Shown one piece after another: positions 24,534 through 43,098 of a DNA stretch of 48,840 nucleotides. The DNA lies in contig JAFRGW010000010.1 of NCBI GenBank assembly GCA_017433615.1, positions 1-48,840 of the forward strand, written 5' to 3'. The notes beneath the pieces are model-generated. The model had not been told where the DNA came from and made no database searches. It was given only the letters and a program-made list of their open reading frames with translations. This stretch comes from Eubacterium sp. GTDB taxonomy: Bacteria; Bacillota; Clostridia; Lachnospirales; Lachnospiraceae. Positions within the stretch are counted from its first letter, which is position 1. Every line of letters begins with the position of its first letter. The position numbers and the translations under genes are program-made.

Positions 24534-24590
24534 CCCGCCGCTGCAGGCGGCGGGCAGCAAAGCAGTCTCAGCGGCGGGACCGGAACGCAG
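24534..24590. repeat. Dispersed structured element, partial copy 1 (upstream of recD2)
   Basis: A perfect hairpin CCCGCCGC/GCGGCGGG (24534-24541 with 24547-24554), then GGCGGGACCGGAACGCAG (24573-24590), which resembles the core GGGACTTGAACGCAG of the thyA-upstream copy. It lies in the short gap before recD2. Confidence 0.4.
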
Positions 24591-24637
24591 CTGCAGATGC
24601 CCCGCTGCTGCAGGCAGCAGGTATGCGGAGAACGATT

Positions 24638-26887
24638 ATGGAACAGGAAACAATCAGCGGATACATAGAACATATTATTTTCCGCAATGAAGAAAACGGA
24701 TACACCGTTATGAGTGTGGCACAGGGCGGCGATGAATTGACTTGTGTCGGCAGTTTTCCCATACTGCACGAAGGGGAATATATAGAGGCGGAAGGCGTGT
24801 TTACAGAGCATGCCGTTTATGGACCGCAGTTTCAGGTAAAGACATATCAGATCCGGGTGCCGGATGATATGCAGGCGTTCGAGCGCTATATCGGAAGCGG
24901 GGCAATCAAGGGAATCGGCGAGAAGCTGGCGCGCAGGATTATAAGCTGCTTCGGCAGTGATACCATGCGGATCATGGAGGAAGAACCTGAGCGGCTCGCA
25001 GAGGTCAAGGGGATCAGCCCGAGAAAGGCCATGCTGATCGGGGAACAGATTCTGGAAAAATCGCAGATGCAGAATGCCATGATTTTTCTCGCACAGTATG
25101 ATATCCCGCTTTCGCTTGGTGTGAAGATTTACCAGCAGTACGGGGACGATCTTTATCGTGTACTGCGGGAAAACCCATACCAGCTGACAGAAGATCTTGA
25201 CGGCGTCGGATTCCGGACTGCAGACAGGATCGCGTCACGCGTCGGAATCCGGCCGGATTCTGAATACCGGATCCGCAGCGGCCTCTTGTATGTAATGAGC
25301 CTGGCAGGACGGGAAGGGCATACTTATCTGCCACAGGAAATTCTCCTGCGGGAGACGGAAAAACTGCTTGAGACGGACACAGATCCAGAGCGGATCCGGA
25401 ATTGTATGATGGATCTCTGCATCGGGAAAAAACTGATTACCAGGGAAGAAATGCTGCAGGACGGCGCATCAGAGCGGCGCGTGTATGCGGCATCTGTTTA
25501 TTTTATGGAACTGAATACGGCAAGAATGCTGAAGGAATTAAACGTCGTCTGTGAGAGTGACAGCGGACGTGTTTCAGCAGGAATTGCCAGGATGGAAGAG
25601 CAGGAAGAGATCCGGCTGGATGAAATTCAGAAACAGGCAGTGTATTCTGCGGCCAGAAACGGCCTGATGATTCTCACCGGAGGACCGGGAACAGGCAAAA
25701 CAACGACGATCAATGCGATGATCCGTTTTTTTCTGGCCGAAAACATGACGATTTCGCTTGCCGCACCGACCGGGCGTGCAGCGAAGCGCATGACGGAGAC
25801 GACAGGATACGAGGCTTCAACAATCCACCGGCTGCTCGAAATAGAAGGAGGACCGGAAGGACAGCTGCAGGATATGCCGCGCTTCGTGCGCAATGCGGAC
25901 AATCCGCTGGAGTCGGACGTTATTATTATCGATGAAATGTCCATGGTGGATATCTATCTGATGCATGCTCTGCTCTCGGCGATCGTACCGGGAACCCGCG
26001 TCATCCTTGTCGGAGATGTCAACCAGCTGCCGAGTGTAGGGCCGGGAAGTGTTCTGAAAGATATGATCGCGGGCGGCGCCTGTGAAGTTGTCCGGCTCAG
26101 TCATATTTTCCGGCAGGCGGCCCGGAGCGATATTGTTGTCAATGCGCACCGGATTCATGAAGGAAAGCCGGTGCGTCTGGATAATCAGAGCAAAGATTTT
26201 TTCTTCCTGGAACGGCAGGACGTGCGGGTGATTCAGCGTGCGGTCCTGCGGCTGGTACAGGAAAAACTGCCGGGCTACGTTCACGCACAGGCGGCAGATA
26301 TTCAGGTGCTGACACCGATGCGCAAAGGTCCGCTCGGCGTGGAGCAGATGAACCTGATTCTGCAGCGCTATCTGAATCCCCCGTCTCCGGATAAAGAAGA
26401 GTGTGAGAGCGGCGGGATTCTCTACCGGACCGGCGACAAGGTAATGCAGATCCGGAATAATTATCAGATGGAGTGGGAGATCAGAGGTCTGCACGGGATT
26501 GCCGGAGACCGGGGCCTCGGTGTATTTAACGGTGATATCGGAACGATCGCCGGCATCGATCCGGTGGATGAAACGGTCGAAGTTTTATTTGATGAAAACA
26601 AAGTGGTCACGTATACGTACGGCCAGCTTAATGAGCTGGAACTGGCCTATGCCGTGACCATTCATAAATCGCAGGGGAGTGAATATCCGGCGGTTGTGAT
26701 TCCACTGCTGACCGGGCCGCCGATGCTTATGACGCGCAATCTGCTGTATACGGCCGTTACCAGGGCGAAGAGCTGTGTCGTGACGGTCGGATCCGGAAAA
26801 ATGTTTATGGATATGATTGCTAATCAGATGGAGGAAAACAGATACACTTCACTGGATGACAGGATCCGTGAGATGCGGGAAATGTAA
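24638..26887 (+). CDS. recD2: RecD2/YrrC-type ATP-dependent DNA helicase
   Basis: A 749-residue SF1B 5'-3' helicase of the RecD2 type found without RecBC. An N-terminal OB-like part (EQETISGYIEHIIFRNEENG) and helix-hairpin-helix segments (IKGIGEKLARRI, VKGISPRKAML, LDGVGFRTADRI) precede the motor. Walker A is GGPGTGKTTT (near 348), motif II is IIIDEMSMVD, motif III is LVGDVNQLPSVG, and the late motifs are VTIHKSQGSEY and TAVTRAKS. Start ATG 24638 is chosen for its GGAG site and family N-terminus. The 36-codon upstream extension is translated repeat element. Family members act in replication stress and recombination control. Confidence 0.93.
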   Translation: MEQETISGYIEHIIFRNEENGYTVMSVAQGGDELTCVGSFPILHEGEYIEAEGVFTEHAVYGPQFQVKTYQIRVPDDMQAFERYIGSGAIKGIGEKLARRIISCFGSDTMRIMEEEPERLAEVKGISPRKAMLIGEQILEKSQMQNAMIFLAQYDIPLSLGVKIYQQYGDDLYRVLRENPYQLTEDLDGVGFRTADRIASRVGIRPDSEYRIRSGLLYVMSLAGREGHTYLPQEILLRETEKLLETDTDPERIRNCMMDLCIGKKLITREEMLQDGASERRVYAASVYFMELNTARMLKELNVVCESDSGRVSAGIARMEEQEEIRLDEIQKQAVYSAARNGLMILTGGPGTGKTTTINAMIRFFLAENMTISLAAPTGRAAKRMTETTGYEASTIHRLLEIEGGPEGQLQDMPRFVRNADNPLESDVIIIDEMSMVDIYLMHALLSAIVPGTRVILVGDVNQLPSVGPGSVLKDMIAGGACEVVRLSHIFRQAARSDIVVNAHRIHEGKPVRLDNQSKDFFFLERQDVRVIQRAVLRLVQEKLPGYVHAQAADIQVLTPMRKGPLGVEQMNLILQRYLNPPSPDKEECESGGILYRTGDKVMQIRNNYQMEWEIRGLHGIAGDRGLGVFNGDIGTIAGIDPVDETVEVLFDENKVVTYTYGQLNELELAYAVTIHKSQGSEYPAVVIPLLTGPPMLMTRNLLYTAVTRAKSCVVTVGSGKMFMDMIANQMEENRYTSLDDRIREMREM

Positions 26888-26948
26888 ATCGCGGTTTTTT
26901 GCTGCACACAGACTGCCGGGAGATGTGGTCAGAAAAGGGGGGAATGTT

Positions 26949-27710
26949 ATGCGGCGGGAAATTCCGGCTTCTGACAAAAACAGATTCCTGCAGCGGATCT
27001 CCGGGATTCTGTATCCGGGCAGATGCGTCCTGTGCGACAGGATTCTGGAGAAGTCCGCACAGATGGTGTGCAGAGACTGCAGACCGCTGGTCCGGTTCAT
27101 AGAGGAACCGAGATGCTGCAGGTGCGGGCGGCCGCTTGAATCTGACACGGAGGCGTACTGCGAGAACTGTAAAATACATCCCCGGCTGTTTGAAAGGGGC
27201 TTCGCGCCTTTTGTATACGACGGAGCGGTCAAAGAAGCGATCATGCGTCTGAAGTATGGTCACCGGGCGGAAAACGCCCGCTTTTTTGCAAAATCCATGT
27301 ACGTCTGCGGAAAACCGTTTCTGACGGAGACAGCGCCACAGGCACTCGTGCCGGTTCCGATCCACAGAGAACGGAGAATGCGGCGCGGCTACAATCAGGC
27401 AGAACTGCTGGCAGAAGCATTGTCAGATCTGACGGGAATTCCGGTCGTGAAGAACAGAATTCTGCGTGTACGGGGGACTGCACCGCAGAAGGAACTCGGT
27501 ATGCAGCAACGGAAAAAGAATCTCGCAGGAGCCTTTCGAATAACCGGAGAGACCGGCAGAGACAGGATGATCCCCGCGCGGGTTCTGATCGTAGATGATA
27601 TTTTTACGACAGGAAGCACGATCGATACCCTCGCGGCACTTCTTCTGCGCGCAGGCGCAGAGAAGGTTTACTTTTCCTGCGCGGCGATTGCTGCCGGATT
27701 TTCGGTGTAA
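26949..27710 (+). CDS. comF: ComF-family phosphoribosyltransferase-like protein
   Basis: A 253-residue ComF protein. The N-terminal zinc module has CVLCDRIL, CRDC, CCRCGRP and YCENC. The C-terminal phosphoribosyltransferase fold has the PRPP-loop motif VLIVDDIFTTGST. In naturally competent bacteria ComF/ComFC works with the ComFA helicase during DNA uptake; in others its role is uncertain. The start ATG 26949 follows AAGGGGGGA. The open frame extends upstream into recD2, but nothing family-like lies there. It begins 61 bases after the recD2 stop on the same strand and is likely co-transcribed with it. No comFA is adjacent. Confidence 0.9.
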   Translation: MRREIPASDKNRFLQRISGILYPGRCVLCDRILEKSAQMVCRDCRPLVRFIEEPRCCRCGRPLESDTEAYCENCKIHPRLFERGFAPFVYDGAVKEAIMRLKYGHRAENARFFAKSMYVCGKPFLTETAPQALVPVPIHRERRMRRGYNQAELLAEALSDLTGIPVVKNRILRVRGTAPQKELGMQQRKKNLAGAFRITGETGRDRMIPARVLIVDDIFTTGSTIDTLAALLLRAGAEKVYFSCAAIAAGFSV

Positions 27711-27836
27711 ACGCCGGATATGCAGATACGTGAAAAACGGTGTCCGTGTGATTTGCCGAGACATAAAAGAGGCACTTTCCACAGGAATAGAATTATGATA
27801 AAATGGTGAGATGATGTTAAAACCGGAGGTTATAAG

Positions 27837-28235
27837 ATGCTCACGAAAAGACGCCTTCACCTGATGATCAAGCTTGCGGAATTCCGGCAGGATCATCAGG
27901 ATGATTCCATGAGAGTGGTGCGGCATTACCGAAGCGACTATATCGCACTCTCAATGATAAAAAATCTGTTCATAACAACGTTTGCCTGGCTGATTCTGAT
28001 CGGACTCTTTGCGCTGTATCACATGGATTTTCTGCTCACCAATCTCAACCAGCTGAAGGTAGGGCCGCTGGCCGCCGTGCTGGTCATTACATATCTGATG
28101 ATGCTCGGTGTTTACAGCGTCATAACATACATGACAGCAAGAATCCGCTATATCCGCTCGTTTGCAGATGTGCGGGAATATGATCAGAAGCTGCGGCTTC
28201 TTGCAAGAATCTACGACGAAGAAGCCGAATCATGA
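27837..28235 (+). CDS. Small membrane protein of unknown function (c-di-AMP locus)
   Basis: A 132-residue protein with two predicted transmembrane helices (about 43-62 and 77-98), a basic N-terminal arm (TKRRLHLMIKLAEFRQDHQ) and a basic/acidic cytosolic tail (YDQKLRLLARIYDEEAES). No enzyme motif is visible. The ribosome site is excellent (CCGGAGG). It is followed after 40 bp by a larger membrane protein and then cdaA-cdaR, so it is probably in the same operon and may have an envelope-stress or ion-related role; that is inference. A possible promoter -10 (TGATAAAAT) lies near 27795. Confidence 0.8.
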   Translation: MLTKRRLHLMIKLAEFRQDHQDDSMRVVRHYRSDYIALSMIKNLFITTFAWLILIGLFALYHMDFLLTNLNQLKVGPLAAVLVITYLMMLGVYSVITYMTARIRYIRSFADVREYDQKLRLLARIYDEEAES

Positions 28236-28275
28236 ATCCGTTTATGGATACGGGAACATTCTGGAGGAACAAAAA

Positions 28276-29289
28276 ATGAACACACTGATCACAGTGCGTG
28301 ATAAGATGAGAGCGCTGTACGCAGATTACAGCATGTATATTGTGCCGGTATTTAAATTTGCACTGGCAATGGTACTCTTTTTGATCATCAATAACAGGAT
28401 GGGATATATGCAGGTGCTGAGCAACCTGTTTGTTCTGATCATCCTTGCAGCAGTCTCTGCAATTCTGCCGCTCAATGCAACGGTATTAATCGGTTCATTT
28501 CTGATTGTGCTGCACTGTTTCGGCCTCGGGCTGGAGGTCGGTGGCTTTGCGCTGATTCTCTATATCGTTCTGGTAATGCTGTACTTCCGCTTCGTACCGC
28601 GGGATGCACTGGTCATTCTGATGGGACCGCTTGCATGTTCCCTGAATATACCGGCAGCAGTTCCGCTTTGTCTCGGACTGATGCGCGGACCGGAGTCGGC
28701 TCTTTCAGCAATCTGCAGTGTGATCTCGTGGCGATTCTTCCAGCTTACCTATGAAGAGATTGCGCCGATGAAGCAGACGGCTGATGCCGGCGCGCTCGAA
28801 ATTCTGCAGCAGATTCCGCGCTCTATGTTTAACAGTTCTCTGGTTCTTTATCTGATCGCATTTGCAGCGACGGCAATCGTCGTCTCGCTGATCTGCAGAT
28901 ATCTGACAACATTCACACGCCTGACTGCAATTGTGATCGGCGCAATTGTATTTATCGTAATTATGATTGCCGGCGGAAGAGCACTGAATGCAGATATTAA
29001 TATCGGTATTGTAGTCGGCGGAACAGCTGTTTCTGCATTGATCGCGCTGGTGCTGAATACCTTCTTCTATACAGTTGATTATTCCAGAAGTAAATTCATC
29101 CAGTTTGAAGATGATGATTATTTCTACTATGTAAAGGCAATTCCGAAGCTGAAGGCTGAGGGTACGCGTCAGGAAGAATTCTTCGATGATGATGCGATTG
29201 ACAATGAACCTCCGCTGACGATCCGCCCGGATGGAAACGGGGAAGTGGATTTTGAGACGAAGCTTGAGGATTCACTCAAAGACTTATAA
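28276..29289 (+). CDS. Polytopic membrane protein of unknown function (c-di-AMP locus)
   Basis: A 337-residue membrane protein. Hydrophobic segments come in two groups, about residues 20-150 (several helices) and about 190-270, separated by a polar stretch (RFFQLTYEEIAPMKQTADAG). The C-terminal 70 residues are acidic and cytosolic (FEDDDYFYYVKAIPKLKAEG, then EEFFDDDAIDNEPP). Start ATG 28276 has GGAGGA ten bases ahead; the upstream in-frame region overlaps the previous gene and lacks a ribosome site. cdaA begins 32 bases downstream. I do not recognise a named family. Its constant proximity to the cyclase suggests it senses or regulates the envelope together with CdaA, unproven. Confidence 0.82.
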   Translation: MNTLITVRDKMRALYADYSMYIVPVFKFALAMVLFLIINNRMGYMQVLSNLFVLIILAAVSAILPLNATVLIGSFLIVLHCFGLGLEVGGFALILYIVLVMLYFRFVPRDALVILMGPLACSLNIPAAVPLCLGLMRGPESALSAICSVISWRFFQLTYEEIAPMKQTADAGALEILQQIPRSMFNSSLVLYLIAFAATAIVVSLICRYLTTFTRLTAIVIGAIVFIVIMIAGGRALNADINIGIVVGGTAVSALIALVLNTFFYTVDYSRSKFIQFEDDDYFYYVKAIPKLKAEGTRQEEFFDDDAIDNEPPLTIRPDGNGEVDFETKLEDSLKDL

Positions 29290-29321
29290 ATGGTTTACAG
29301 AATTTGAAAGGAGTGCGCGGT

Positions 29322-30185
29322 TTGACTGGTTTCATCAGCTGGCTGCAGGTTCATATACTGCCATGGGTAACGCCCCCGAAGCAAATTGAAATCATTGACA
29401 TTATTCAGGTGATTCTGATTGCATTTTTCGTTTACAATCTGATCATCTGGGTAAAGGACACGCGTGCTTATACACTTCTTCGCGGCATTCTCTTTATCAT
29501 TGCATTTATGGTGGTTGCCAATGTTCTGGGTATGGAAGTAATCGTATGGCTGGTCAGCCGCGTTGGTATCGCGGCATTTACGGCACTTGTGATTATTTTC
29601 CAGCCGGAGCTCCGGAAAGCACTCGAACAGGTCGGCCACAGAAATTTCCTGACCAGATTTATTCCCACACGCAATGTGGAAGAAAACAAACGATTCAGCG
29701 ATCAGACGTTAAATGAAATCGTACATGCATGTTATGAGATGGCTGAAGTACGCACCGGTGCGCTGATCGTTGTCGAAAACAATATCAGGCTGGATGACTA
29801 CGAACAGACGGGAATCCCGGTGGATGCAATTATCAGCAGTCAGCTTCTGATTAATATTTTTGAGCACAACACACCGCTGCATGACGGCGCAATCATCGTG
29901 CGCGGGGACAGAATTACAGCGGCAACCTGCTATCTGCCGCTTTCGGATAATACTTCACTTTCCAAACGCCTGGGAACACGGCACCGTGCAGGGGTCGGCA
30001 TCAGCGAAGTCAGTGACTGCTTCGTCGTGATTGTGTCAGAGGAAACAGGACAGGTATCTTATGCACAGGAGGGGAAACTTCGTACAGCCGCATCACCCGC
30101 GCAGCTGCGGGAAGCGCTGCATGAGGTTCAGAAACTTGTGCAGACGCCGAAAAGACGGCGGGGTAAGGAGGCAGTGAATGTTTAA
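29322..30185 (+). CDS. cdaA: Diadenylate cyclase CdaA
   Basis: A 287-residue membrane-bound diadenylate cyclase that makes c-di-AMP from two ATP. Three N-terminal transmembrane helices (about 25-45, 52-70 and 73-93) are followed by the DAC domain with its two signatures, HDGA (187-190) and GTRHRAGVG (218-226). The start is TTG 29322 because AAAGGAG lies eight bases ahead; another TTG 18 bases earlier would overlap that site. c-di-AMP controls potassium and osmolyte transport and wall homeostasis in Firmicutes. The gene overlaps cdaR by eight bases, the standard pairing; glmM is not next to them here. Confidence 0.95.
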   Translation: MTGFISWLQVHILPWVTPPKQIEIIDIIQVILIAFFVYNLIIWVKDTRAYTLLRGILFIIAFMVVANVLGMEVIVWLVSRVGIAAFTALVIIFQPELRKALEQVGHRNFLTRFIPTRNVEENKRFSDQTLNEIVHACYEMAEVRTGALIVVENNIRLDDYEQTGIPVDAIISSQLLINIFEHNTPLHDGAIIVRGDRITAATCYLPLSDNTSLSKRLGTRHRAGVGISEVSDCFVVIVSEETGQVSYAQEGKLRTAASPAQLREALHEVQKLVQTPKRRRGKEAVNV

Positions 30186-31473
30186 AAAAGTCTCCGAAAT
30201 GCTTCGCAATAATATTGGACTGAAACTGCTTTCGCTTGCGATCGCTGTGATCATCTGGTATGCAGTGGTCAGCGTGAATGATCCGGTTATCGTACGCAGC
30301 TTCAGCGTTAAAATCACAACGCAGAATGAAACATATATCCAAAACGGAAAACAGCTGTTCCGGATTGAGGATGATTACAAGACAACGCTCGTATATGTGC
30401 GGGCGAACCGCTCAACGCTTCGGGATATCAACGCGGATGATATCGTAGTAACGGCCGATCTGACACAGATCGTGGATCTGGATGCGACGCCGGTCATGGT
30501 GCCGCTGCAGGTCAGCTGTCCCGGTGTAGACCGTACCAATCTCACACTTTCCAGAACTGCAATTCCGATTACGATTGAGGAGATTGCGACGAAGGAAATC
30601 GCAATCGCAGTTGATACCGGCGATACCAGACCGGGAAGCAGCTATGAAGTCGGAAGACTCACGGCAAATCCGGAGAAGGTTTCGGTCAGCGGTCCGAAAT
30701 CCGTCGTAGAAGATATTGAGACAATCGTTGCCCGGATCGATGTGACGGGTATGACGTACAGTGCACGGCGCAATGCAGATCTGATCCTGTATGACAGAAA
30801 TCAGAATGAACTGCCGGCGGCTACTATTGAAGATGATATCACGTTCAGTACGGAGAGTTCGGGCGTGTCGGTTGAAGTAGAACTCTGGAAACGACAGTCG
30901 GATGTTATTATTCAGGCTGCGTATACAGGTGAGCCGCAGGCCGGTTATCAGGTGGGCGCAATTACCACAAATCCGCAGACGGTTTCTGTAGTGGGAAGTG
31001 ACGATGCGCTTGCAGAACTGAAAGAAGCGGGCAATATCATCAGTATTCCGGCGGAATTAATTGATATCAGCGGATCAGATCAGGATTATACGACAGAACT
31101 GGATCTTTCTGAACTGATGCCGGAAGATATGCGGATTGCAGCAAATACATCTTCCACAGCTGAGGTTACTGTGACCATTCTTCCGGAAGGAAGCAAAGAA
31201 TTCGTGATTGATGTTGATGATATTACACCGCAGTCTCTGAACGAAGAACTCACAATTTCCTATGATCAGACCGAGGTGACGGTAGTTCTTCGTGGAAATG
31301 ATGAGATTCTCACGAGACTGAAATCTTCAGATCTCAAACCTGCAATCGACTGCAGCAGTATGGAAGAAGGCGACTATAACACTGCATTAAAGGTGACCCT
31401 TCCTGCAGATGTGGAAATCCTTGATGAGGTGAAGATTACAGTGCACATTAAGAAAGCAGCAAGGACGGATTAA
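30178..31473 (+). CDS. cdaR: CdaA regulatory protein CdaR (YbbR repeats)
   Basis: A 431-residue protein with one N-terminal transmembrane helix (about 14-34, LLSLAIAVIIWYAVVSV) and an extracellular part made of about four YbbR repeats. Each repeat shows the P-V-x-V-x-G type pattern (NPEKVSVSGPKSVVEDI and NPQTVSVVGSDDALAEL are the clearest). CdaR binds CdaA through the membrane and tunes c-di-AMP synthesis. The start overlaps the end of cdaA by eight bases and has AAGGAGG in front. Length and domain number match Firmicutes homologues. Confidence 0.93.
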   Translation: MFKKVSEMLRNNIGLKLLSLAIAVIIWYAVVSVNDPVIVRSFSVKITTQNETYIQNGKQLFRIEDDYKTTLVYVRANRSTLRDINADDIVVTADLTQIVDLDATPVMVPLQVSCPGVDRTNLTLSRTAIPITIEEIATKEIAIAVDTGDTRPGSSYEVGRLTANPEKVSVSGPKSVVEDIETIVARIDVTGMTYSARRNADLILYDRNQNELPAATIEDDITFSTESSGVSVEVELWKRQSDVIIQAAYTGEPQAGYQVGAITTNPQTVSVVGSDDALAELKEAGNIISIPAELIDISGSDQDYTTELDLSELMPEDMRIAANTSSTAEVTVTILPEGSKEFVIDVDDITPQSLNEELTISYDQTEVTVVLRGNDEILTRLKSSDLKPAIDCSSMEEGDYNTALKVTLPADVEILDEVKITVHIKKAARTD

Positions 31474-31475
31474 AT

Positions 31476-31763
31476 ATGCAGCACAGGATGATCAGACTGG
31501 ACAATGAAATGGGAATACATCTTCGGCCCGCGGGACATCTGTGTGAGCTGACCAGTAAATACCGCGCGCGGGTGACATTTGATCACATGGGACAGATTTC
31601 CGATGCAAAGAGTGTACTCAGTGTCCTGGCAGCAGGTGTCAAGGGCGGCGATACAATTACGCTCTACTGTGAGGGACCGGATGAGGAAGATGCTATGGAA
31701 GCTGTTACGGCAATGTTTCTGGAGCGTCTTTCCGGCGTGGTGATTGAGAGTACAGAAGAATAA
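31476..31763 (+). CDS. HPr-family phosphocarrier protein
   Basis: A 95-residue HPr. The phosphorylation site is His15 with Arg17 (GIHLRPAG), and the regulatory serine Ser46 is present (DAKSVLSVL), so it could be phosphorylated both by PTS enzyme I at His15 and by HPr kinase at Ser46. It therefore is not a Crh-type protein, which lacks His15. It begins two bases after the cdaR stop and so is part of the c-di-AMP operon, an unusual place for HPr. Whether it is the main PTS HPr or a dedicated paralogue cannot be told here, so no gene symbol is given. Confidence 0.9.
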   Translation: MQHRMIRLDNEMGIHLRPAGHLCELTSKYRARVTFDHMGQISDAKSVLSVLAAGVKGGDTITLYCEGPDEEDAMEAVTAMFLERLSGVVIESTEE

Positions 31764-31766
31764 CTG

Positions 31767-31795
31767 TTGCTTTTTGCGTTAATTAATAGTATGAT
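31767..31795 (+). promoter_or_regulatory. Promoter of the LCP gene
   Basis: TTGCTT (31767-31772), 17 bases, TATGAT (31790-31795), immediately after the HPr stop codon. Confidence 0.6.
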
Positions 31796-31802
31796 GTTGG
31801 AG

Positions 31803-31830
31803 CAATTCAGAACCTTACGGTTCTGAATTG
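31803..31830. other. Perfect 12-bp hairpin in the LCP leader
   Basis: CAATTCAGAACC and GGTTCTGAATTG flank a TTAC loop. No T-run follows. It sits just after the promoter above, so it would be at the 5' end of the LCP transcript, where such hairpins protect mRNA; it could also act as a weak end of the c-di-AMP operon. Confidence 0.6.
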
Positions 31831-31871
31831 TTGCATGATTACGCGCAGGAAATATTTCCGGTAAGAGGTCT

Positions 31872-33290: not shown

Positions 33291-33328
33291 TCCGGCGGCT
33301 GTCCTGCAAGGTGCCTGATCAAACAGAA

Positions 33329-33380
33329 AGACATGTTTTTCACAGACCGCACGAGATGTGAAAAATGTGTCTTTTTTTTT
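33329..33380 (+). terminator. Strong terminator after the LCP gene
   Basis: A sixteen-base-pair stem (AGACATGTTTTTCACA with TGTGAAAAATGTGTCT, two wobble pairs), twelve-base loop, then nine T residues. Confidence 0.9.
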
Positions 33381-33404
33381 GCATAAATAAACCAATTCAG
33401 GAAA

Positions 33405-33453
33405 AATGTGTCCTTTTTTTGAATTTCCCGGAAAGTTTAAATACGGACACATT
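33405..33453. other. 49-bp dyad-symmetric sequence in the LCP-htrA spacer
   Basis: Outer arms AATGTGTCC (33405-33413) and GGACACATT (33445-33453) are perfectly complementary and centred on the same point (33429) as the inner arms TTTCC and GGAAA; the bases between are partly paired. The left arm lies in the sequence GAAAAATGTGTC plus T-run that also ends the LCP terminator, so the two may have arisen by duplication. A possible TATAAT for htrA is at 33514-33519. Nothing else is clear in this 319-bp gap. Confidence 0.6.
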
Positions 33454-35553: not shown

Positions 35554-35629
35554 AGAAGCACGCCAGGTATTATCACAGAAACACGATTAAGGGTGAGTAT
35601 AAGTTAATAGTATCATGTTTTACCTCAGG

Positions 35630-35660
35630 AACGGAGTTGTGCGGGAGCGCAGCTCCGTTT
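35630..35660 (+). terminator. Stem-loop after htrA (probable terminator)
   Basis: AACGGAGTTGTGC pairs with GCGCAGCTCCGTT (two wobbles) around GGGA: thirteen base pairs. Only three T residues follow, so efficiency is uncertain. Confidence 0.55.
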
Positions 35661-35682
35661 CATGCTGTAAATCGGGGTTTGT

Positions 35683-35702
35683 GAGAACCGTCCCCTGTCT
35701 CC
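35683..35702. repeat. REP-like sequence GAGAACCGTCCCCTGTCTCC
   Basis: This word is of the kind I recall as repeated in intergenic DNA of many bacteria (GAACCGTCCCC type), often linked to Y1-type transposases. Only one copy is in the window, so the call rests on recognition alone. Confidence 0.3.
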
Positions 35703-35749
35703 TTGGTGGAAATGATCCCGGCAAACTCCGATTTGTAAATGTAAAAACA

Positions 35750-35778
35750 TTGATGCACTGAAAAAAGTAGAATATAAT
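35750..35778 (+). promoter_or_regulatory. Promoter of the ClpX-like gene
   Basis: TTGATG (35750-35755), 17 bases, TATAAT (35773-35778). A second TATAAT follows at about 35786-35791, nearer the start codon. Confidence 0.75.
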
Positions 35779-35808
35779 AACATGATATAATCTGTTAAGG
35801 AGAACTAT

Positions 35809-37386
35809 ATGTCTGACGAGAACAAATTTACGATAGAGGAAAAAAGTGACGCGTCGGAAACTGCAGAAGGGAAAATACCTGAAACGGAAGAAAGACAGGA
35901 TTCACATTATGATCCGAAAAAAGATTCACATGACCGCAGAAAAGAACCTCCGCGGATCTGCTACATGTGCCGCCGCAGTGAGAACAGAGCCGGGCGGCTG
36001 ATCGAGATACCCGGCGGTATCTGCGTCTGTGCGGACTGTATGCAGAAGAGCTTTGACAGCATGCAGAACGGCGCAATTGATTATAGTGAGATTATGCGCA
36101 ATCTGCCGCCTGGCATGGGGATGTTTGATCTCTCAAATCTGAATTTTTTTGATGGAATGTTTGGCGGAAACAGCCAGGACGACCGTTCCCGGAATCAGAA
36201 AAAAAAGCATGCGGGACATGCATCCGGGGCAGATGCAGACGGCAGCTTCCGTGCGGGTGCAGATGTAGATCCGGATGCAGACGGGCAGAATGTGCGTCCG
36301 ATGACGATACAGGATGTCATGCCGCCGCACAAGATCAAAGAGGCACTGGATGAATATGTGATCGGGCAGGAACAGGCAAAGAAAATCATGTCTGTCGGCG
36401 TATATAATCACTATAAACGGATTCTTTCGGAACCGAAAGACGGCGTAGAGATTGCAAAATCAAACATGCTGATGATCGGACCGACCGGATCAGGTAAAAC
36501 ATATCTGGTACAGACGCTTGCGAGGCTGTTAAATGTTCCCCTGGCCATGACAGATGCGACTTCGCTCACAGAGGCCGGGTATATTGGCGATGATATCGAG
36601 AGCGTTGTCTCCAAACTTCTGATGGCTGCCGACAATGATGTGGAACGCGCGGAGCATGGTATTATTTTTATTGATGAGATTGACAAAATCGCAAAGAAGA
36701 AAAATGTCAGCCAGCGCGATGTCAGCGGAGAAGCAGTACAGCAGGGTCTTTTGAAACTTCTGGAAGGCAGTGATGTCGAGGTTCCGGTGGGCGCAACCAA
36801 CAAAAATGCAATGGTTCCGCTGGAAACGGTCAATACGAGCAATATCCTGTTTATCTGCGGCGGGGCATTTCCGGATCTGGAGCTGATTATCAAACAGCGC
36901 CTGAACAAAACGGCTTCGATCGGTTTTCAGGCGGATCTGCATGATAAATACGACAACGATCCGAATCTGCTGCAGAAGGTAATGCTGGAGGATCTCCGGA
37001 AATTCGGCATGATACCGGAATTTCTGGGCCGTATGCCGGTTGTATTTGCACTGCACAGCCTTACGGAAGATATGCTGGTAGAAGTACTGAAAGAACCGCG
37101 CAATGCAATTCTGAAGCAGTATGAACGTCTGCTGGAACTGGACGAGGTGAAATTATCCTTTGAGGATGCAGCACTGCACGCCATCGCGAAGAAGGCAATG
37201 GAGCGGGATACCGGTGCACGCGCGCTGCGGGCTGTGATCGAGGAATTCATGCTGGATATTATGTATGAGATCCCGAAGGATAAAAATATCGGAGAAGTCG
37301 TTATTACGAAGGAATATATCGAACACACCGGCGGTCCGCGCATCGTGCTGCGCAGTGCGTCCGTTCCGCGGATTACGGGCGCGTGA
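35809..37386 (+). CDS. clpX: ClpX-like ATP-dependent protease ATPase subunit with extended N-terminal region
   Basis: A 525-residue AAA+ unfoldase, about 100 longer than typical ClpX. Residues 1-48 are a charged extension. The zinc-binding domain uses C51, C54, C74 and C77. A Gly/Asp-rich spacer (about 95-165, with alternating ADADG-like units) separates it from the ATPase core: Walker A GPTGSGKT (224-231), pore-loop GYIG (257-260) and Walker B IIFIDEID (285-292). The ClpP-docking loop motif IGF (371-373) is present, so it should feed ClpP. The zinc domain is divergent (CYMCRRSEN in place of the usual CSFCGKSQ) and clpP is not adjacent, which suggests a second, specialised ClpX, although this cannot be proved here. 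The ribosome site is AAGGAG. Confidence 0.88.
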   Translation: MSDENKFTIEEKSDASETAEGKIPETEERQDSHYDPKKDSHDRRKEPPRICYMCRRSENRAGRLIEIPGGICVCADCMQKSFDSMQNGAIDYSEIMRNLPPGMGMFDLSNLNFFDGMFGGNSQDDRSRNQKKKHAGHASGADADGSFRAGADVDPDADGQNVRPMTIQDVMPPHKIKEALDEYVIGQEQAKKIMSVGVYNHYKRILSEPKDGVEIAKSNMLMIGPTGSGKTYLVQTLARLLNVPLAMTDATSLTEAGYIGDDIESVVSKLLMAADNDVERAEHGIIFIDEIDKIAKKKNVSQRDVSGEAVQQGLLKLLEGSDVEVPVGATNKNAMVPLETVNTSNILFICGGAFPDLELIIKQRLNKTASIGFQADLHDKYDNDPNLLQKVMLEDLRKFGMIPEFLGRMPVVFALHSLTEDMLVEVLKEPRNAILKQYERLLELDEVKLSFEDAALHAIAKKAMERDTGARALRAVIEEFMLDIMYEIPKDKNIGEVVITKEYIEHTGGPRIVLRSASVPRITGA

Positions 37387-37405
37387 GAGGAAAACAGGGA
37401 TGTGC

Positions 37406-37498
37406 CGGAGCCGTACAGAAGCACGGCAAGGGATTTGAATTCATTGGATCAGTCCACCGCCTCAGGCGCGTGGAACGCCCACTGAGTTCAACGCTCCG
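37406..37498. repeat. Dispersed structured element, copy 2 (upstream of the lspA-like gene)
   Basis: Core 37430-37479 matches the thyA-upstream copy at 41 of 50 positions without gaps, including GATCAGTCC and GCCTCAGGCGCGT. Pairings visible here are closing stem CGGAGC/GCTCCG (37406-37411 with 37493-37498), hairpin GCCGT/ACGGC, stem GGATT/AGTCC, and stem GGCG/CGCC. The closing stem differs in sequence from the other copy yet still pairs. Confidence 0.6.
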
Positions 37499-37560
37499 CT
37501 TGAGATGCATAGGAACCCGGAAAGGAAGATGTCGGCAGATCAGAAGGGAGAAGTTATTTC

Positions 37561-38013
37561 ATGGTATATATCGCGATTGTTCTGGCAGTTTTTTCGGCTG
37601 ACATGATGCTGAAGCGCTATGTTGAGGAAAACCTGGGAGCGCAGGAGGAACGGCAGTATTTTGGCGGGAACGTGCGTGTGCGCAAAGTACATAATCATGG
37701 CATGCTCCTCGGTGCATTCAAAGATAAACCGAAGATGGTCCGCCGTGTGACTGGCGCTGTGCTGCTGGCGGCAGCAGTCCGGCTGCTTACGGTTATATTC
37801 AGCAGAAAAAAGGAGCGGCGCGCGGGGAAACTTGCACTGGCATTGATTGTCGGCGGCGCCTTGTCCAACTGGTTTGACCATTTTCACCAGGGCTATGTGG
37901 TAGATTATGTAAACGTGAAAACACCGGTGCGTTTTCTGAAGAAAATATACTTCAATCTGGCGGATTTCTTTATCGTTGCCGGCGCCCTGATCGCAGCGCT
38001 GTTTGACCGCTAA
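37561..38013 (+). CDS. Signal peptidase II-like membrane protein (divergent LspA)
   Basis: A 150-residue polytopic membrane protein with LspA-type landmarks: SADMMLKRY in helix 1, HNHGMLLGAF (42-53) in the position of the usual NxGAAF motif, GGALSNWFDHFHQGYVVDYV (98-117) with catalytic Asp115, and FNLADFFI (131-138) with catalytic Asp135. Both aspartates of the lipoprotein signal peptidase are present, so it could cleave prolipoproteins. The middle motif is unusual and the protein is short and basic (RKKERRAGK), so it may be a specialised paralogue. The ribosome site (AGGGAGAAG) precedes the ATG. It lies alone between clpX and pckA, downstream of the dispersed element. Confidence 0.78.
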   Translation: MVYIAIVLAVFSADMMLKRYVEENLGAQEERQYFGGNVRVRKVHNHGMLLGAFKDKPKMVRRVTGAVLLAAAVRLLTVIFSRKKERRAGKLALALIVGGALSNWFDHFHQGYVVDYVNVKTPVRFLKKIYFNLADFFIVAGALIAALFDR

Positions 38014-38093
38014 TGGTGAGATTTTGTCAATTTTTACCAAAGATAGGCAAAAACAAATTGTATTTTTTTATAAACAATATCGGCACCCTTTGC

Positions 38094-38122
38094 TTGTAAA
38101 TGTACTGGGAAACAGGTATAAT
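38094..38122 (+). promoter_or_regulatory. pckA promoter
   Basis: TTGTAA (38094-38099), 17 bases, TATAAT (38117-38122), about 64 bases before the pckA start. Confidence 0.8.
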
Positions 38123-38185
38123 GGCAAAAGGACTGATTTGGCAACAATTTAACAAATTAAAGTAATAGAGAAAGGTTCACAAGTT

Positions 38186-39799
38186 ATGGCAAAAATTGAT
38201 CTGACAAAGTATGGCATTACTGATGTAAAAGAAATCATCCACAATCCTTCTTATGATTTCTTCTATGAAGAAGAGATTAAGCCGGATCTGGAAGGATTTG
38301 ATAAGGGACAGGTTTCCGAACTTGGTGCTGTCAATGTCATGACCGGTATTTACACCGGACGTTCTCCTAAAGATAAATACATCGTTATGGATGAAGGTTC
38401 CAAGGATACTGTCTGGTGGACATCTGAAGAATATCCGAACGACAACAAGCCGATGAGTGAAGAGACCTGGGCTGACATGAAGAAAATCGCAATCAACCAG
38501 CTCTCCGGCAAGCGCCTGTTTGTACAGGACTGCTTCTGCGGCGCAAACAAAGACACCCGCATGGCAATCCGTTTCATCATGGAAGTTGCATGGCAGGCAC
38601 ACTTCATCAAGAACATGTTCATCAACCCGACAGATGAAGAGCTTGAGAACTTTGAGCCGGACTTTGTCTGCTACAATGCTTCCAAGGCAAAGGTTGAGAA
38701 CTATAAGGATTACGGCCTGAATTCCGAGACAGTTGCGGCATTCAATGTTACCAGCCGTGAGCAGGTTATCATCAACACATGGTACGGCGGTGAGATGAAG
38801 AAGGGTATGTTCTCCATGATGAACTACTATCTGCCGCTGAAGGGCATCGCTTCCATGCACTGCTCTGCAAACACAGATATGGAAGGCAAGAACACAGCAA
38901 TCTTCTTCGGCCTTTCCGGAACCGGCAAGACCACACTCTCCACAGATCCGAAGCGTCTTCTGATCGGTGATGACGAGCACGGCTGGGATGACAACGGCGT
39001 ATTCAACTTCGAGGGCGGATGCTATGCAAAGGTTATCAACCTCGACAAGGAATCCGAGCCGGACATCTACAATGCAATCAAGCGCAATGCGCTCCTTGAG
39101 AACGTCACACTGGATGAGAACGGCAAGATTGATTTTGCTGACAAGAGTGTCACAGAGAACACACGTGTATCTTATCCGATCGACCACATCGAGAAGATCG
39201 TTCTGAATGTTAATCCGATCTCTGCAGGTCCGGCAGCTGAGAATGTAATCTTCCTGTCAGCTGACGCATTTGGTGTACTGCCGCCGGTTTCCATCCTGAC
39301 AGAGGAACAGACCCAGTATTACTTCCTGTCCGGCTTCACAGCAAAGCTGGCAGGTACCGAGCGCGGCATCACAGAGCCGACACCGACCTTCTCCGCATGC
39401 TTCGGCCAGGCATTCCTGGAGCTGCATCCGACAAAGTACGGTGAGGAGCTCGTTAAGAGAATGGAGAAGAGCGGCGCGAAAGCTTATCTGGTTAACACCG
39501 GATGGAACGGCACCGGCAAGCGTATCTCCATCAAGGATACCCGCGGTATTATCGATGCAATCCTGAACGGCGATGTACTGAAGGCTCCGACAAAGAAGAT
39601 TCCGATCTTTGATCTTGAGGTTCCGACAGAGCTTCCGGGTGTTGATCCGGCAATTCTGGATCCGCGTGACACCTACGCAGATGCTGCTGAGTGGGATGCA
39701 AAGGCAAAGGATCTGGCAGGACGCTTCATCAAGAACTTTGAGAAGTACACTTACAATGAGCATGGCAAGGCACTTGTTCCGGCAGGCCCGCAGCTTTGA
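38186..39799 (+). CDS. pckA: Phosphoenolpyruvate carboxykinase (ATP)
   Basis: A 537-residue ATP-type PEP carboxykinase, interconverting oxaloacetate plus ATP and PEP plus CO2 plus ADP. Visible are TGRSPKDKY (near 52), the kinase-1a P-loop [11 protein letters not shown] (about 242-252), the metal site [19 protein letters not shown] and the adenine-binding TRVSYP. In anaerobic gut clostridia it often runs in the carboxylating direction to conserve energy. Codon use is strongly biased (AAG, GAC, ATC, TTC), marking very high expression. The gene has its own promoter and a strong terminator. The ribosome site is AGAAAGG. Confidence 0.97.
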
Positions 39800-39810
39800 T
39801 CACGCGTACC

Positions 39811-39824
39811 GGTCAGGCACCTGC
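39811..39824 (-). repeat. Inverted copy of the GGTGCCTGA intergenic word
   Basis: On the minus strand it reads GCAGGTGCCTGACC, sharing GGTGCCTGAC with the site at 5075. It lies just after the pckA stop. Confidence 0.3.
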
Positions 39825-39858
39825 TTAACTGAACAGACATGAAATCTATAAGAACGGA

Positions 39859-39888
39859 GGCTGCCGCATACGCGGCGGCCTTCTTTTT
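39859..39888 (+). terminator. pckA terminator
   Basis: GGCTGCCGC pairs with GCGGCGGCC (one wobble) around ATAC, followed by TTCTTTTT. Confidence 0.88.
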
Positions 39889-39960
39889 ATCTGACAGGAT
39901 TTCTTTTTTGTTTTTTAGATAATCTGAATCGGGACGGCAGATGCAGAACACAACTTATGC

Positions 39961-39989
39961 TAGACTTGCAGATGTTTTCGGGCTATAAT
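39961..39989 (+). promoter_or_regulatory. Promoter of the SH3 lipoprotein gene
   Basis: TAGACT (39961-39966), 17 bases, TATAAT (39984-39989). The -10 is perfect and the -35 is moderate. Confidence 0.6.
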
Positions 39990-40075
39990 TACACATAGTG
40001 TTAAGATAATATCAGTATGATCCGGCGTTTCATACAGTGAGATGATGCCGGATGATTCAGGGGAGAATGTAAAGT

Positions 40076-40702
40076 ATGAAAGCGACAAAGGTTTTACCGT
40101 TTATTCTTACGGCAGCAGTGCTTGCGGGACTGGCAGGCGGATGCGGCAGCAGCAATTCGGACGCGCAGGAGACAGCAGAGGCAGTCGTAACGGAGACACC
40201 AACGCCGACCCCGACGCCGACTCCGACGCCAACGCCGACCCCGACGCCGACACCAACCCCGACCCCGACACCTGAGGCGGGTTCTCTGAAGCCGGAGGCA
40301 ATTGAGGCAGTTCCGGTAGACGGCGCGGAAGAAAACGGGGAAGAAGCGAAAGACCCTGCCGGTGAAACGACAGATCCGGCTGACAGCGGGAGCGGATATG
40401 TCACAGTCAGCAGTGCAAATGTGCGTGAAAATCCGGATCTTGATTCAGAAATCTATACTTCGCTGGATCCTGGAACTGCAGTTACCGTTGTCGGAGAAGA
40501 AGACGGCTGGTATATCGTCTCTATAGACGGCGGCACTTATTATATTTCACAGGAACTTCTCGGAAAAGCGGGAACGCAGACAGATACAGAAGTAACCGAA
40601 GATACAGATGATACAGATGACGGTTACGACGACAGTGAAGAATACAGTGAAGAGGATTACGAAGAAGAGGACTACGATGACGGTGGTTCCCGTGCAGAGT
40701 AA
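40076..40702 (+). CDS. Lipoprotein with Thr-Pro repeat, SH3 domain and acidic tail
   Basis: A 208-residue lipoprotein. The lipobox is LAGG-Cys23. Residues about 40-66 are an uninterrupted Thr-Pro repeat of about thirteen units, a stiff spacer through the wall. A bacterial SH3 (SH3b) domain spans about 106-160, with VTVSSANVRENPDLDSEIYT, VVGEEDGWYIVSIDGG and TYYISQELL. The last 40 residues are Asp/Glu/Tyr-rich (DDGYDDSEEYSEEDYEEEDY). SH3b domains bind peptidoglycan or proteins, so this is likely an envelope-attached binding protein. Start ATG 40076 follows GGGGAGA. Its acidic tail resembles that of the LCP protein at 31872. Confidence 0.87.
   Translation: MKATKVLPFILTAAVLAGLAGGCGSSNSDAQETAEAVVTETPTPTPTPTPTPTPTPTPTPTPTPTPEAGSLKPEAIEAVPVDGAEENGEEAKDPAGETTDPADSGSGYVTVSSANVRENPDLDSEIYTSLDPGTAVTVVGEEDGWYIVSIDGGTYYISQELLGKAGTQTDTEVTEDTDDTDDGYDDSEEYSEEDYEEEDYDDGGSRAE
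40195..40272 (+). repeat. Thr-Pro coding repeat
   Basis: About thirteen ACN-CCN six-base units, mostly ACGCCG, ACCCCG and ACTCCG mixtures. The reverse strand reads Gly-Val repeats and is only a shadow. Length is probably variable between strains. Confidence 0.9.
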
Positions 40703-40816
40703 GACCGGCGCTGACTGAACTGCGTGCAGTCCTCACAGAAAGGCGCGCAGGAAGGTGTGCAAGTACGTGCGCAGCGCATGCGCGGCCGGCGATGGTGATA
40801 AATAATGAACATGAAA

Positions 40817-40854
40817 AACGCAGCGGCAATTATATGTTTGCCGCTGCGTTTTTT
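40817..40854. terminator. Bidirectional terminator between the SH3 lipoprotein gene and mscL
   Basis: A thirteen-base-pair stem AACGCAGCGGCAA/TTGCCGCTGCGTT. TTTTTT follows on the plus strand, and the minus-strand tail is TTTTTC, so it serves both converging genes. A further CGCGATC/GATCGCG palindrome lies at 40871-40887. Confidence 0.88.
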
Positions 40855-40920
40855 GCTCTGCGTATTCAATCGCGATCTCTGATCGCGTGCGTGCTGTGCA
40901 CCTGTGCATCTGCCGGTTAA

Positions 40921-41337
40921 TTACTTCAGTTCAGATGTGCAGTGCGGGCATCTGGTTGCATCGATGCTGACGTCATCGGACTTGCAGAACGGGCAGATCT
41001 TGGTGGTCGGTGCTGCTTCCGGCTCAGGTTTCTTGACGATGCTCTGTGCTTTGTTCAGCGCCTTGACCATGCAGAAGATTACAAATGCAATGATGATAAA
41101 GTTAATGATCGCGCCGACAAAATTACCGATGGCGATTACGCCGCCGCCTGCAAGGTGGATGCCCATCTGGCTGACATCGATACCACCGCTGATCAGAGAA
41201 ATGATCGGCATAATGATGTCATCAACCAGAGAGGTAACGATAGCAGTGAAGGCAGCACCAATGATCATACCTACAGCAAGATCCATAACACTGCCGCGTG
41301 AGATGAATTCCTTGAATTCAGATATAAATTTTTTCAC
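40921..41337 (-). CDS. mscL: Large-conductance mechanosensitive channel with C-terminal zinc ribbon
   Basis: A 138-residue MscL. The N-terminal amphipathic helix (KKFISEFKEFISRGS) is followed by transmembrane helix 1 (about 16-44, VMDLAVGMIIGAAFTAIVTS), a short periplasmic loop, and helix 2 (about 69-95). The channel opens under membrane tension and releases solutes during osmotic downshock. In place of the usual helical bundle end, the tail carries a zinc ribbon, C115, C118, C130 and C133 (CPFC and CPHC). The start is GTG 41337 with a strong GAGGAGG site. It is transcribed alone on the minus strand. Confidence 0.94.
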   Translation of the reverse strand: MKKFISEFKEFISRGSVMDLAVGMIIGAAFTAIVTSLVDDIIMPIISLISGGIDVSQMGIHLAGGGVIAIGNFVGAIINFIIIAFVIFCMVKALNKAQSIVKKPEPEAAPTTKICPFCKSDDVSIDATRCPHCTSELK

Positions 41338-41383
41338 AACAACTCCTCCTCATCTATCTGTATAATATTAAATAGTCATTTTT

Positions 41384-41411
41384 ATTATAGCAGTTTACCG
41401 AAATAAAACAA
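41384..41411 (-). promoter_or_regulatory. mscL promoter
   Basis: Minus strand: TTGTTT (41411-41406), 16 bases, TATAAT (41389-41384). The remaining part of the 302-bp gap to thyA holds the dispersed element below; I see no clear thyA promoter. Confidence 0.6.
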
Positions 41412-41537
41412 TAAAGAGTTTTGGAAATCCTCCATCGTGCAGACAACCGGCCTGTTTGTGAATCTTTCCTATAGACAGATGTCGTGGTTCAAATTACAAT
41501 AGACACTGTATCTTGTATATCTCAGTGGAAGATGAAT

Positions 41538-41615
41538 CCCGCCTTTGCAGGCGACGGGACTTGAACGCAGTCGATCAGTCCCCTGCCTCAGGCGCGTAGA
41601 GCGCCAGACGGCGGG
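41538..41615. repeat. Dispersed structured element, copy 3 (upstream of thyA)
   Basis: A 78-base unit closed by CCCGCC/GGCGGG (41538-41543 with 41610-41615). Inside are stem GGGACT/AGTCCC (41556-41561 with 41577-41582) and hairpin GGCGC/GCGCC (41591-41595 with 41601-41605). The core 41556-41605 is 41/50 identical to 37430-37479. The outer arm can alternatively pair as CCCGCC...GGCGACGGG. The unit ends 24 bases before the thyA start. The minus strand contains GTTCAAGTC but does not fold as a tRNA. Confidence 0.6.
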
Positions 41616-41639
41616 TTTGAATGACGGAGAAATAGAATT

Positions 41640-42488
41640 ATGAGTTACGCAGATCAGCTGTTTATCAGTATGTGCAGGGATATTATTGACAACGGATGTG
41701 ATACAAAAGGAGAGCTGGTGCGGCCGCACTGGCCGGACGGAACACCTGCATATACGATTAAGAAGTTCGGTGTCGTCAGCCGCTATGATCTCACCAGAGA
41801 ATTTCCGGCACTTACCCTCAGGAAGACTTATCTGAAAAGTGCGTTTGATGAGATCCTCTGGATCTGGCAGAAAAAATCGAATAACATTCACGATCTTCAT
41901 AGTCATATCTGGGATGAGTGGGCAGATGAAAACGGCTCGATCGGAAAAGCCTACGGTTACCAGCTTGGCGTGAAACACCAGTATCGCGAAGGAGAAATGG
42001 ATCAGGTAGACAGGGTGCTGTACGACCTGAAGCACAATCCCTACAGCCGGCGGATTATGACCAACATGTATGTGCATCAGGATCTTCATGAGATGGCGCT
42101 GTATCCCTGTGCCTATTCGATGACATTCAACGTCACGAAGAAGGCGGGCAGCGACAGACTAACGCTGAATGCCGTGCTGCACCAGCGCTCACAGGACGTA
42201 CTTGCCGCCAATAACTGGAATGTATGTCAGTATGCACTGCTGCTGATGATGTTTGCGCAGGTCTGTGACATGGAGGCGGGGGAACTGCTGCATGTGATTG
42301 CAGATGCACATATTTATGACAGACACATTCCGCTGATTGAGGAACTGATCACCCGGGAGACCTATCCGGCACCGGCAGTGCGGCTCAATCCGGAGATCAG
42401 GGATTTCTATGAATTTACGCGCGATGATCTGATCGTAGAAAATTATCAGGCCGGTCCGCAGATTAAGGATATTCCGATCGCTATCTGA
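41640..42488 (+). CDS. thyA: Thymidylate synthase
   Basis: A 282-residue ThyA that methylates dUMP to dTMP using methylene-tetrahydrofolate. The catalytic cysteine is Cys157 (ALYPCAYSM), the dUMP-phosphate arginine pair is in YSRRIMTN, and LHQRSQDVLAANNWN is the nucleotide-binding segment, followed by HIYDRH. Length is normal. The ribosome site ACGGAGA precedes ATG 41640. The dihydrofolate reductase gene follows after 34 bp, the classical pairing, because ThyA oxidises the folate that FolA must reduce again. Confidence 0.97.
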   Translation: MSYADQLFISMCRDIIDNGCDTKGELVRPHWPDGTPAYTIKKFGVVSRYDLTREFPALTLRKTYLKSAFDEILWIWQKKSNNIHDLHSHIWDEWADENGSIGKAYGYQLGVKHQYREGEMDQVDRVLYDLKHNPYSRRIMTNMYVHQDLHEMALYPCAYSMTFNVTKKAGSDRLTLNAVLHQRSQDVLAANNWNVCQYALLLMMFAQVCDMEAGELLHVIADAHIYDRHIPLIEELITRETYPAPAVRLNPEIRDFYEFTRDDLIVENYQAGPQIKDIPIAI

Positions 42489-42522
42489 CACACAGAAAAT
42501 AAGAATACGAGGAGATCAGAAG

Positions 42523-43011
42523 ATGAAAGCAATTGCAGCCGCTGACAGAAACTGGGGAATCGGACAGGGGAATAAACTGCTGATCAGCATTCCGGCAGAC
42601 ATGCGCTTTTTCCGTGAGAAGACAACGGGGCATGTTGTCGTTATGGGGCGGAAAACACTGGAGAGTTTTCCGAACGGGAAACCCTTGAAGGACCGCGTTA
42701 ATATTGTTCTGACAAGAGACCGCAGCTACAGCGTGAAGGGTGCTGAAATTGTCCACAGTGTGGAAGAACTGACAGAACTGCTCGAACAGTATCCCTCAGA
42801 TGAGGTCTATGTGATCGGCGGCGAACAGATCTACCGGCAGCTGCTCCCGCTCTGTGATACAGCTTATATCACAAAGATCGATTATGCTTATCAGGCAGAT
42901 GCGTTTTTTCCGGATCTGGATGCGGATCCTGCATGGGAGATTGCGGAAGAAAGCGAAGAACAGACATGCTTTGATATTGAATACACGTTCCGGACCTATG
43001 TACGGCGTTAA
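42523..43011 (+). CDS. folA: Dihydrofolate reductase
   Basis: A 162-residue DHFR. AIAAADRNWGIGQGNKL is the N-terminal strand and loop, the acidic active-site residue is Asp26 (IPADMRFFREKT), NADPH contacts are VVVMGRKTLESFP (38-50), and EVYVIGGEQIYRQLLP is the C-terminal signature. It regenerates tetrahydrofolate used by the adjacent ThyA. The ribosome site GAGGAGA is good. Probably co-transcribed with thyA. Confidence 0.97.
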   Translation: MKAIAAADRNWGIGQGNKLLISIPADMRFFREKTTGHVVVMGRKTLESFPNGKPLKDRVNIVLTRDRSYSVKGAEIVHSVEELTELLEQYPSDEVYVIGGEQIYRQLLPLCDTAYITKIDYAYQADAFFPDLDADPAWEIAEESEEQTCFDIEYTFRTYVRR

Positions 43012-43042
43012 CATGTTCTAACATAATCAGGCGGGAAATCAC

Positions 43043-43098
43043 CCCGTTCTGAGCAGCGGGACTTAAGCATGAGAAACAGTGCCGCCTCTGCAGGCGGC
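43043..43098. repeat. Dispersed structured element, partial copy 4 (upstream of ispG)
   Basis: Hairpin CCCG...CGGG ending in GCGGGACTTAAGC (43056-43068), similar to the core GGGACTTGAACGC, then a perfect stem GCCGCC/GGCGGC (43081-43086 with 43093-43098) with TCTGCA between, like CCCGCC-TTTGCA-GGCG in the thyA copy. Similarity is partial and the order of the parts differs. Confidence 0.35.

Follow-up and report, generated by a model that had tools for sequence, protein, structure and literature searches.

The window considered here, a stretch of 48,840 nt on contig JAFRGW010000010.1 of Eubacterium sp. (Lachnospiraceae), carries small repeated units upstream of four genes, recD2 (from 24638), lspA (Peptidase_A8, 37561), thyA (Thymidylat_synt, 41640) and ispG (GcpE, 43112), the same neighbours that an initial annotation of the window had named. 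By comparison with full copies these units are deletion derivatives, decayed and shortened members of an element of ~200 nt, and the family they belong to, which many related gut bacteria carry, is widespread, structured, mobile and apparently undescribed in the literature searched. The initial annotation had already proposed a structured RNA or a non-autonomous mobile element. For a dispersed, structured and non-autonomous mobile element, copies in other genomes, covariation and presence or absence at orthologous sites now bear this out, although the stems drawn for it are wrong and the window copies are shortened.

The genome of the window (G000, 2.97 Mb in 173 contigs) was compared within a genus set of five genomes (G000-G004) and two covariance models were used, R1 for the alpha unit and R2 for the full element, the latter built from type-A copies and tested against 20 sources. 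The features at thyA and lspA, with alpha and gamma two of the hairpin types of the family, are as follows.

41516..41519, + strand: TATA, the target that adjoins the first (gamma) unit of thyA on its left; TTGTATA exists in G001 without either unit
41520..41565, + strand: gamma unit at thyA, in G002 and not in G001; compare the full-length copies L164 and L165
41561..41565, + strand: TTGAA, with which gamma ends and which serves alpha as target; in G002 without alpha
41566..41621, + strand: alpha unit of 56 nt at thyA, an exact extra segment relative to G002, with 3' terminus GGGTTTGAA
37435..37439, + strand: TTGAA, left flank of the lspA copy, assigned from sequence and from a position as in other alpha copies
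37440..37541 (right limit approximate), + strand: element copy upstream of lspA, found by R2 and R1; absent in G001 and G002

At thyA three states are found, with G001 having neither unit, G002 having gamma, and G000 having gamma and alpha, the 56 extra nucleotides of the latter coming directly after the TTGAA that ends gamma. Gamma is here a deletion derivative in which the left end TCTCAGTGG is fused to the right end GGGACTTGAA, alpha is a hairpin with a single-base bulge, and both sit ahead of the start codon and downstream of a conserved block. That block (~41483-41519) is kept in G000, G001 and G002 and is perhaps the thyA promoter. It is from TTGTATA in G001 and TTGAA in G002, which exist without the unit that follows them in G000, that the four flank bases are read as target and not element. 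Further along the genome a block of ~209 nt on contig C90 of G000, its limits taken from BLAST coordinates, is lacking in G002, where the flanking matches meet at adjacent positions. The alpha copies at lspA and C88:5877 are missing in both G001 and G002, as are, by eye in gapped alignments, those at C88:13924 and C90:2087, and one insertion (L012/L073) is common to G000 and G002. With presence and absence at orthologous sites, the element is mobile.

The left motifs at other sites are consistent with insertion 3' of a short motif that is kept in the left flank, with 27 of the 39 alpha rows having TTGAA, 5 GTGAA and 7 others, in a search whose pattern favoured TGAA. The thyA site gives no sign of a target-site duplication, with a left TTGAA that was there beforehand and a right one at the end of the element itself, but a 5-bp duplication would leave an identical pattern. 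A conventional miniature inverted-repeat transposable element, with a DDE transposase and TTGAA (for alpha) or another short motif as target-site duplication, might be read into the two TTGAA around alpha at thyA and into some short, deleted copies that are near-perfect inverted repeats (L010). The left motif varies by subfamily (TTTA, TTTT, TATA, TTGA), yet the type-A right end is constantly CTTGA(A), and several alpha copies have unlike motifs on the two sides, such as L006 and L013 with GTGAA on the left and TTGAA on the right, which makes plain target duplication less likely. On balance such a conventional element is unlikely.

Copies of ~200 nt are seen in G000 (C90) and G002 (C211, C199 and C55), and comparison of these full copies identifies the 56-nt alpha unit as the left part of the element. 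The element consists, in order, of the left end, a hairpin P2, an internal strand P1', a 20-nt core ACGCTCCGCGRGGATGYGCA that is conserved across copies, two hairpins P3 and P4, and the right end, CTTGA(A) in type A, where P1' is the partner of the left end and of the 4-5 nt that flank it on the left. Of 103 core copies, 47 were assigned to type A and had a right end; a script dropped 7 of them, and 32 of the other 40, full copies picked by hand and in some cases given corrected ends, form the alignment A4. The five named helices pair in 94.6% of 1451 cells of A4 (shuffled 86.9, 0/500), a percentage that is favoured since the structure was derived from the same sequences. Change on both sides is found in 17 of 46 pairs (11.1 when shuffled, 0/500) and there are 107 double-change cells against 30.2 (0/500), in a shuffle test that is weakened by the relatedness of the rows; further pair types were not exceptional against the shuffles (138/500). 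In control structures slid along the alignment, double-change cells never exceeded 12 and pairing never exceeded 39.6%. The five helices covary. For alpha alone, in an alignment (A3) of 25 of the 39 alpha rows with incomplete copies excluded, the signal is modest, at 90.0% paired against 88.7 (5/500) and 99/500 for pairs changed on both sides. The matches of R2 extend to full beta copies in G000 (L041, L036 and L053, 90-93 bits) and to type-B copies in other genera (L290, L293, L238 and L199, 56-72 bits), but not to the alpha-only loci L006, L008 and L017; when R2 was run over the window the 41.5-kb copy at thyA was not among the matches.

The structure so obtained differs from the one first drawn. 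The ungapped core of 50 bases at 82% identity, reported for the copies at lspA and thyA, does align (37430-37479 with 41556-41605), and R1 recovers both copies, at 41561-41623 with 85.2 bits for thyA, which is a training row, and at 37435-37493 with 29.6 bits for lspA, which is not. R2 places the latter at 37433-37515 with 15.2 bits, and it comprises the left end, a shortened P2, P1' (CCCACTGAGTTCAA) and the beginning of the core and P3, without the 3' part. The significant covariation belongs to helices other than the stems proposed. In the closing stem CGGAGC/GCTCCG the first arm (37406-37411) is outside the unit, which starts after the TTGAA of 37435-37439, and its partner (37493-37498) belongs to the conserved core ACGCTCCGCG, while CCCGCC/GGCGGG pairs arms of two successive units; the two stems are not homologous and do not covary. 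The inner stem GGGAYT/AGTCC depends on GGGA(C/T) at the end of the neighbour upstream, and this is lacking in most of the alpha copies listed.

The first helix, formed by the left end and P1', extends into the left flank, pairing TTTATCTCAG with CTGAGATAAA, TTGAACTCAG with CTGAGTTCAA and TATATCTCAG with CTGAGATATA. When the helix was positioned from its inner pairs only, all four outer pairs were Watson-Crick in 63 of 85 copies, against a mean of 19.1 and a maximum of 35 in 2000 shuffles. By type, 6 of the 28 flank/P1' types pair fully compared with 36 of 784 over all combinations, and as the copies are related the independent support amounts to the six matched types.

The type-B copies follow terminators, with 26 of 32 (a class that contains misfiled type-A copies such as L166, L209 and L244) behind a predicted hairpin of minimum free energy below -8 that ends at most 4 nt from a T-run, compared with 7 of 31 upstream control windows with an energy below -8, a control that ignores the position of the hairpin. 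Type A has no such preference (9/54 against 13/54 in its control). A target behind an intrinsic terminator hairpin, partly read by pairing, is also described for group IIC introns (PMC7161350), and together with the target pairing, the strong covariation and the sense orientation of alpha it could point to an RNA-mediated retroelement of that kind, the transcript of which would pair with the terminator-adjacent target and be reverse-spliced or copied in. Such an origin is nonetheless distinctly improbable, since the element is ~200 nt long, the copies scanned match no Rfam intron family at E<=5 or E<=1, those read encode no reverse transcriptase, and type A is without terminator preference. 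Group IIC introns are much larger than this.

Placement just upstream of a plus-strand gene, noted at first for all the window copies, is a strong tendency of the family but not a rule. By a codon-scored picker of open reading frames, the 39 alpha rows of the genus divide into 27 flanked on both sides by genes of their own direction, 0 flanked by two opposed genes (27 against 0, p 1.5e-8), 3 between divergent genes, 3 between convergent genes and 6 unplaceable; the TGA within the left TTGAA closes the upstream frame in 6 rows. Opposed, antisense placements occur in 2/10 beta, 1/7 gamma and 1/17 core copies. The bias in alpha, the covariation and the position of the thyA units before the start codon are what a cis-regulatory leader RNA would lead one to expect, but the downstream genes are unrelated, the same genes in sister genomes do without the units, antisense placements exist and type B follows terminators, which leaves a leader very improbable as the nature of the element. 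Single copies may still affect expression.

The family is not confined to the window. BLASTN with the 41.5-kb copy against G000 gave 33 places at E<=10; at E<=0.01 there were 24, the query being one of them and two overlapping at a single place, which leaves 23 further matches. A more typical copy at E<=0.001 had 27 matches in G000, 7 in G001, 9 in G002 and 0 in G003 and G004, and the alpha-type element is therefore held by three of the five genomes of the genus. In a named genome collection, from which the window's own records were possibly left out, a 21-base pattern was found only in the metagenome-assembled genome Eubacterium sp. RGIG4369 from roe deer jejunum, in 5 stretches. Across the family, presumably Lachnospiraceae, the full element has BLASTN matches in 27 of 250 genomes (26/249 genera, with at most 3 matches scored per genome), and the core with at most one mismatch is found in 65 of 397 genomes (61/334 genera), up to 73 times in a single one (G106); the core read backwards, as a control pattern, gave 0 among the rows listed. 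The core pattern is also found in 4 contigs of a viral collection, of which only L333 scores well by R2, with an element-like copy at 3469-3595 (59.7 bits, against 13.2 for the other three), this contig being assigned as viral by the collection only. Phages and plasmids searched with two full copies gave no match, nor did a 19-nt pattern in a viral contig collection, and none of the Rfam families scores at or above gathering in the element copies scanned. Three forms of the core string had no match in the literature searched, outside which lie most subscription journals, and no description of the element was found there, including the available portions of PMC5934647, PMC3049150, PMC3119063, PMC7161350 and PMC10969869.

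The reading that we favour, and which we would put at about an even chance, is that of a family of non-autonomous, IS200/IS605-like mobile DNA elements of the single-strand type, working in the manner of the palindrome-associated transposable elements (PATEs), relatives of IS200/IS605 without a transposase, and with its own target-pairing strand, that is mobilised in trans by a Y1 (HUH) transposase. The Y1 enzyme would act in trans, P1' would contribute to target choice at the stage when the DNA is single-stranded, and the element would join 3' of the target without duplicating it. The window copies are short derivatives that end at one or another TTGAA, which can in turn be the next target and so give rise to tandem units. 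Y1 matches are present in G000, G001 and G002, which have alpha, and absent from G003 and G004, which do not. One resident IS200/IS605 type follows TTGAA, the motif used by alpha, at three distinct sites (L033/L134, which is shared, L136 and L138), and P2 resembles, by eye, the end hairpins of resident IS605 elements, the ends of which were read in part, though R2 does not match those loci. The Y1 gene at L138 is interrupted by a stop. Y1 proteins in frames of ~220-311 aa, bigger than ordinary TnpA, were seen in G295, G194, G141, G296, G113, G158, G042, G039, G036 and G396, which include genomes with and without the element.

Several observations weigh against this reading. The pairing of P1' with the flank rests on six fully paired types of 28, the target is known to the base at thyA only, and P1' lies 3' of the hairpin whereas the guide of IS608 lies 5' (PMC5934647). 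Among 40 hand-chosen genomes of at least 97% completeness, Y1 matches occur in 16 of the 20 that carry the core and in 11 of the 20 that lack it, a difference that is not significant (p 0.18), and there is no Y1 match in the element-bearing G199, G180, G331 and G071. One IS of the TTGAA type (L144) does not follow TTGAA, and R2 has no match at five IS200/IS605 loci (L031-L034 and L138), which lends no support to shared ends or to descent from the resident IS605 elements. The four genomes without a Y1 match are 97-100% complete and could argue for a single-strand element moved in trans by some other, as yet unknown, enzyme; but mobility may be past and the transposase since lost, the other 16 of the 20 genomes do have Y1, and no recurrent unexplained neighbour protein was identified, which makes such an enzyme unlikely. 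Clustering of the neighbour proteins of 103 loci identified no mobiliser, the largest cluster (9 loci) being ABC transporter-like by eye, while the clusters of 8, 5 and 4 loci look, again by eye, like translated element sequence, apart from one that resembles a common transporter. A broader possibility, held tentatively and well short of the Y1 reading, is a new class of self-guided miniature elements in which each copy's own target-reading strand, P1', extends the first helix into a mostly T-rich flank of 4-5 nt, target and strand have changed together in subfamilies, one subfamily homes on intrinsic terminators, and the mobiliser is other than Y1.

Amongst known systems the element would work most like a PATE. 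PATEs were described from Haloquadratum, where they have moved despite missing intact IS200-type transposases (PMC3119063). The likeness lies in a length that leaves no space for a transposase, near-terminal hairpins, a short terminal target motif, derivatives with deleted cores and no evident target duplication (PMC3119063), subject here to the ambiguity at thyA. PATEs lack terminal inverted repeats; in full copies of the present element the left end has its partner in an internal strand rather than at the right end, while some deletion derivatives (L010) look inverted-repeat. The element differs in that its first helix joins the left end and flank to an internal strand, in four further covarying helices, in the conserved core, in a terminator-targeting subfamily and in the failure of R2 to match IS605 loci. 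IS605 carries a hairpin with a bulged T, and the DNA fold of a consensus-like alpha hairpin (L003) likewise has one bulged T, with a short TCA/TGA pairing at its foot that recalls the guide/cleavage pairing of IS608. Insertion 3' of a short T-rich motif retained in the left flank and, as proposed for P1', a target picked by base pairing with element DNA are further likenesses to IS200/IS605, in particular IS608 (PMC5934647). The pairing strand here, in contrast, follows the hairpin on its 3' side and lengthens its stem, although extended target pairing on the 3' side has been engineered in IS608 (PMC5934647). There is no room in ~200 nt for a Y1 TnpA, neither tnpA nor tnpB is carried, and as the element has no transposase and its ends are not matched to IS200/IS605 it is not filed there. 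Compared by description, the BOX and SPRITE repeats of Streptococcus pneumoniae are also modular, small, strongly folded and intergenic, SPRITE having AAAA/TTTT inverted ends and being terminator-like, but BOX is reported to cause target duplications (PMC3049150).

The relatives that had been noted at 24.5 and 43.0 kb of the window do exist, but belong to sister hairpin types.

24517..24584, + strand: degenerate gamma-like unit upstream of recD2 (R2 at 24512-24632, 10.4 bits, E 0.098)
24585..24621, + strand: second hairpin of like kind, adjoining the gamma-like unit before recD2 (repeat family D2/D8/D15)
43040..43101, + strand: degenerate hairpins of like kind upstream of ispG (R2 7.9 bits only, E 0.48, at 43082-43097)

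Separate from the element is a Clostridiales-1 RNA (RF01699) at 9815-9979 on the + strand (92.3 bits, above gathering), and kinship between the two was rejected on comparison by eye. Short tandem repeats at 12-nt spacing, GACGCCGACNCC-like, lie at 40195-40278, at the start of a predicted SH3-domain protein.

The element would account for much of the repeated intergenic sequence in these bacteria, and thyA and lspA are among the genes in front of which it places hairpins. It also offers natural variants that differ in target and in pairing strand at once, which makes the choice of a target by base pairing, as engineered in IS608 (PMC5934647), directly testable.

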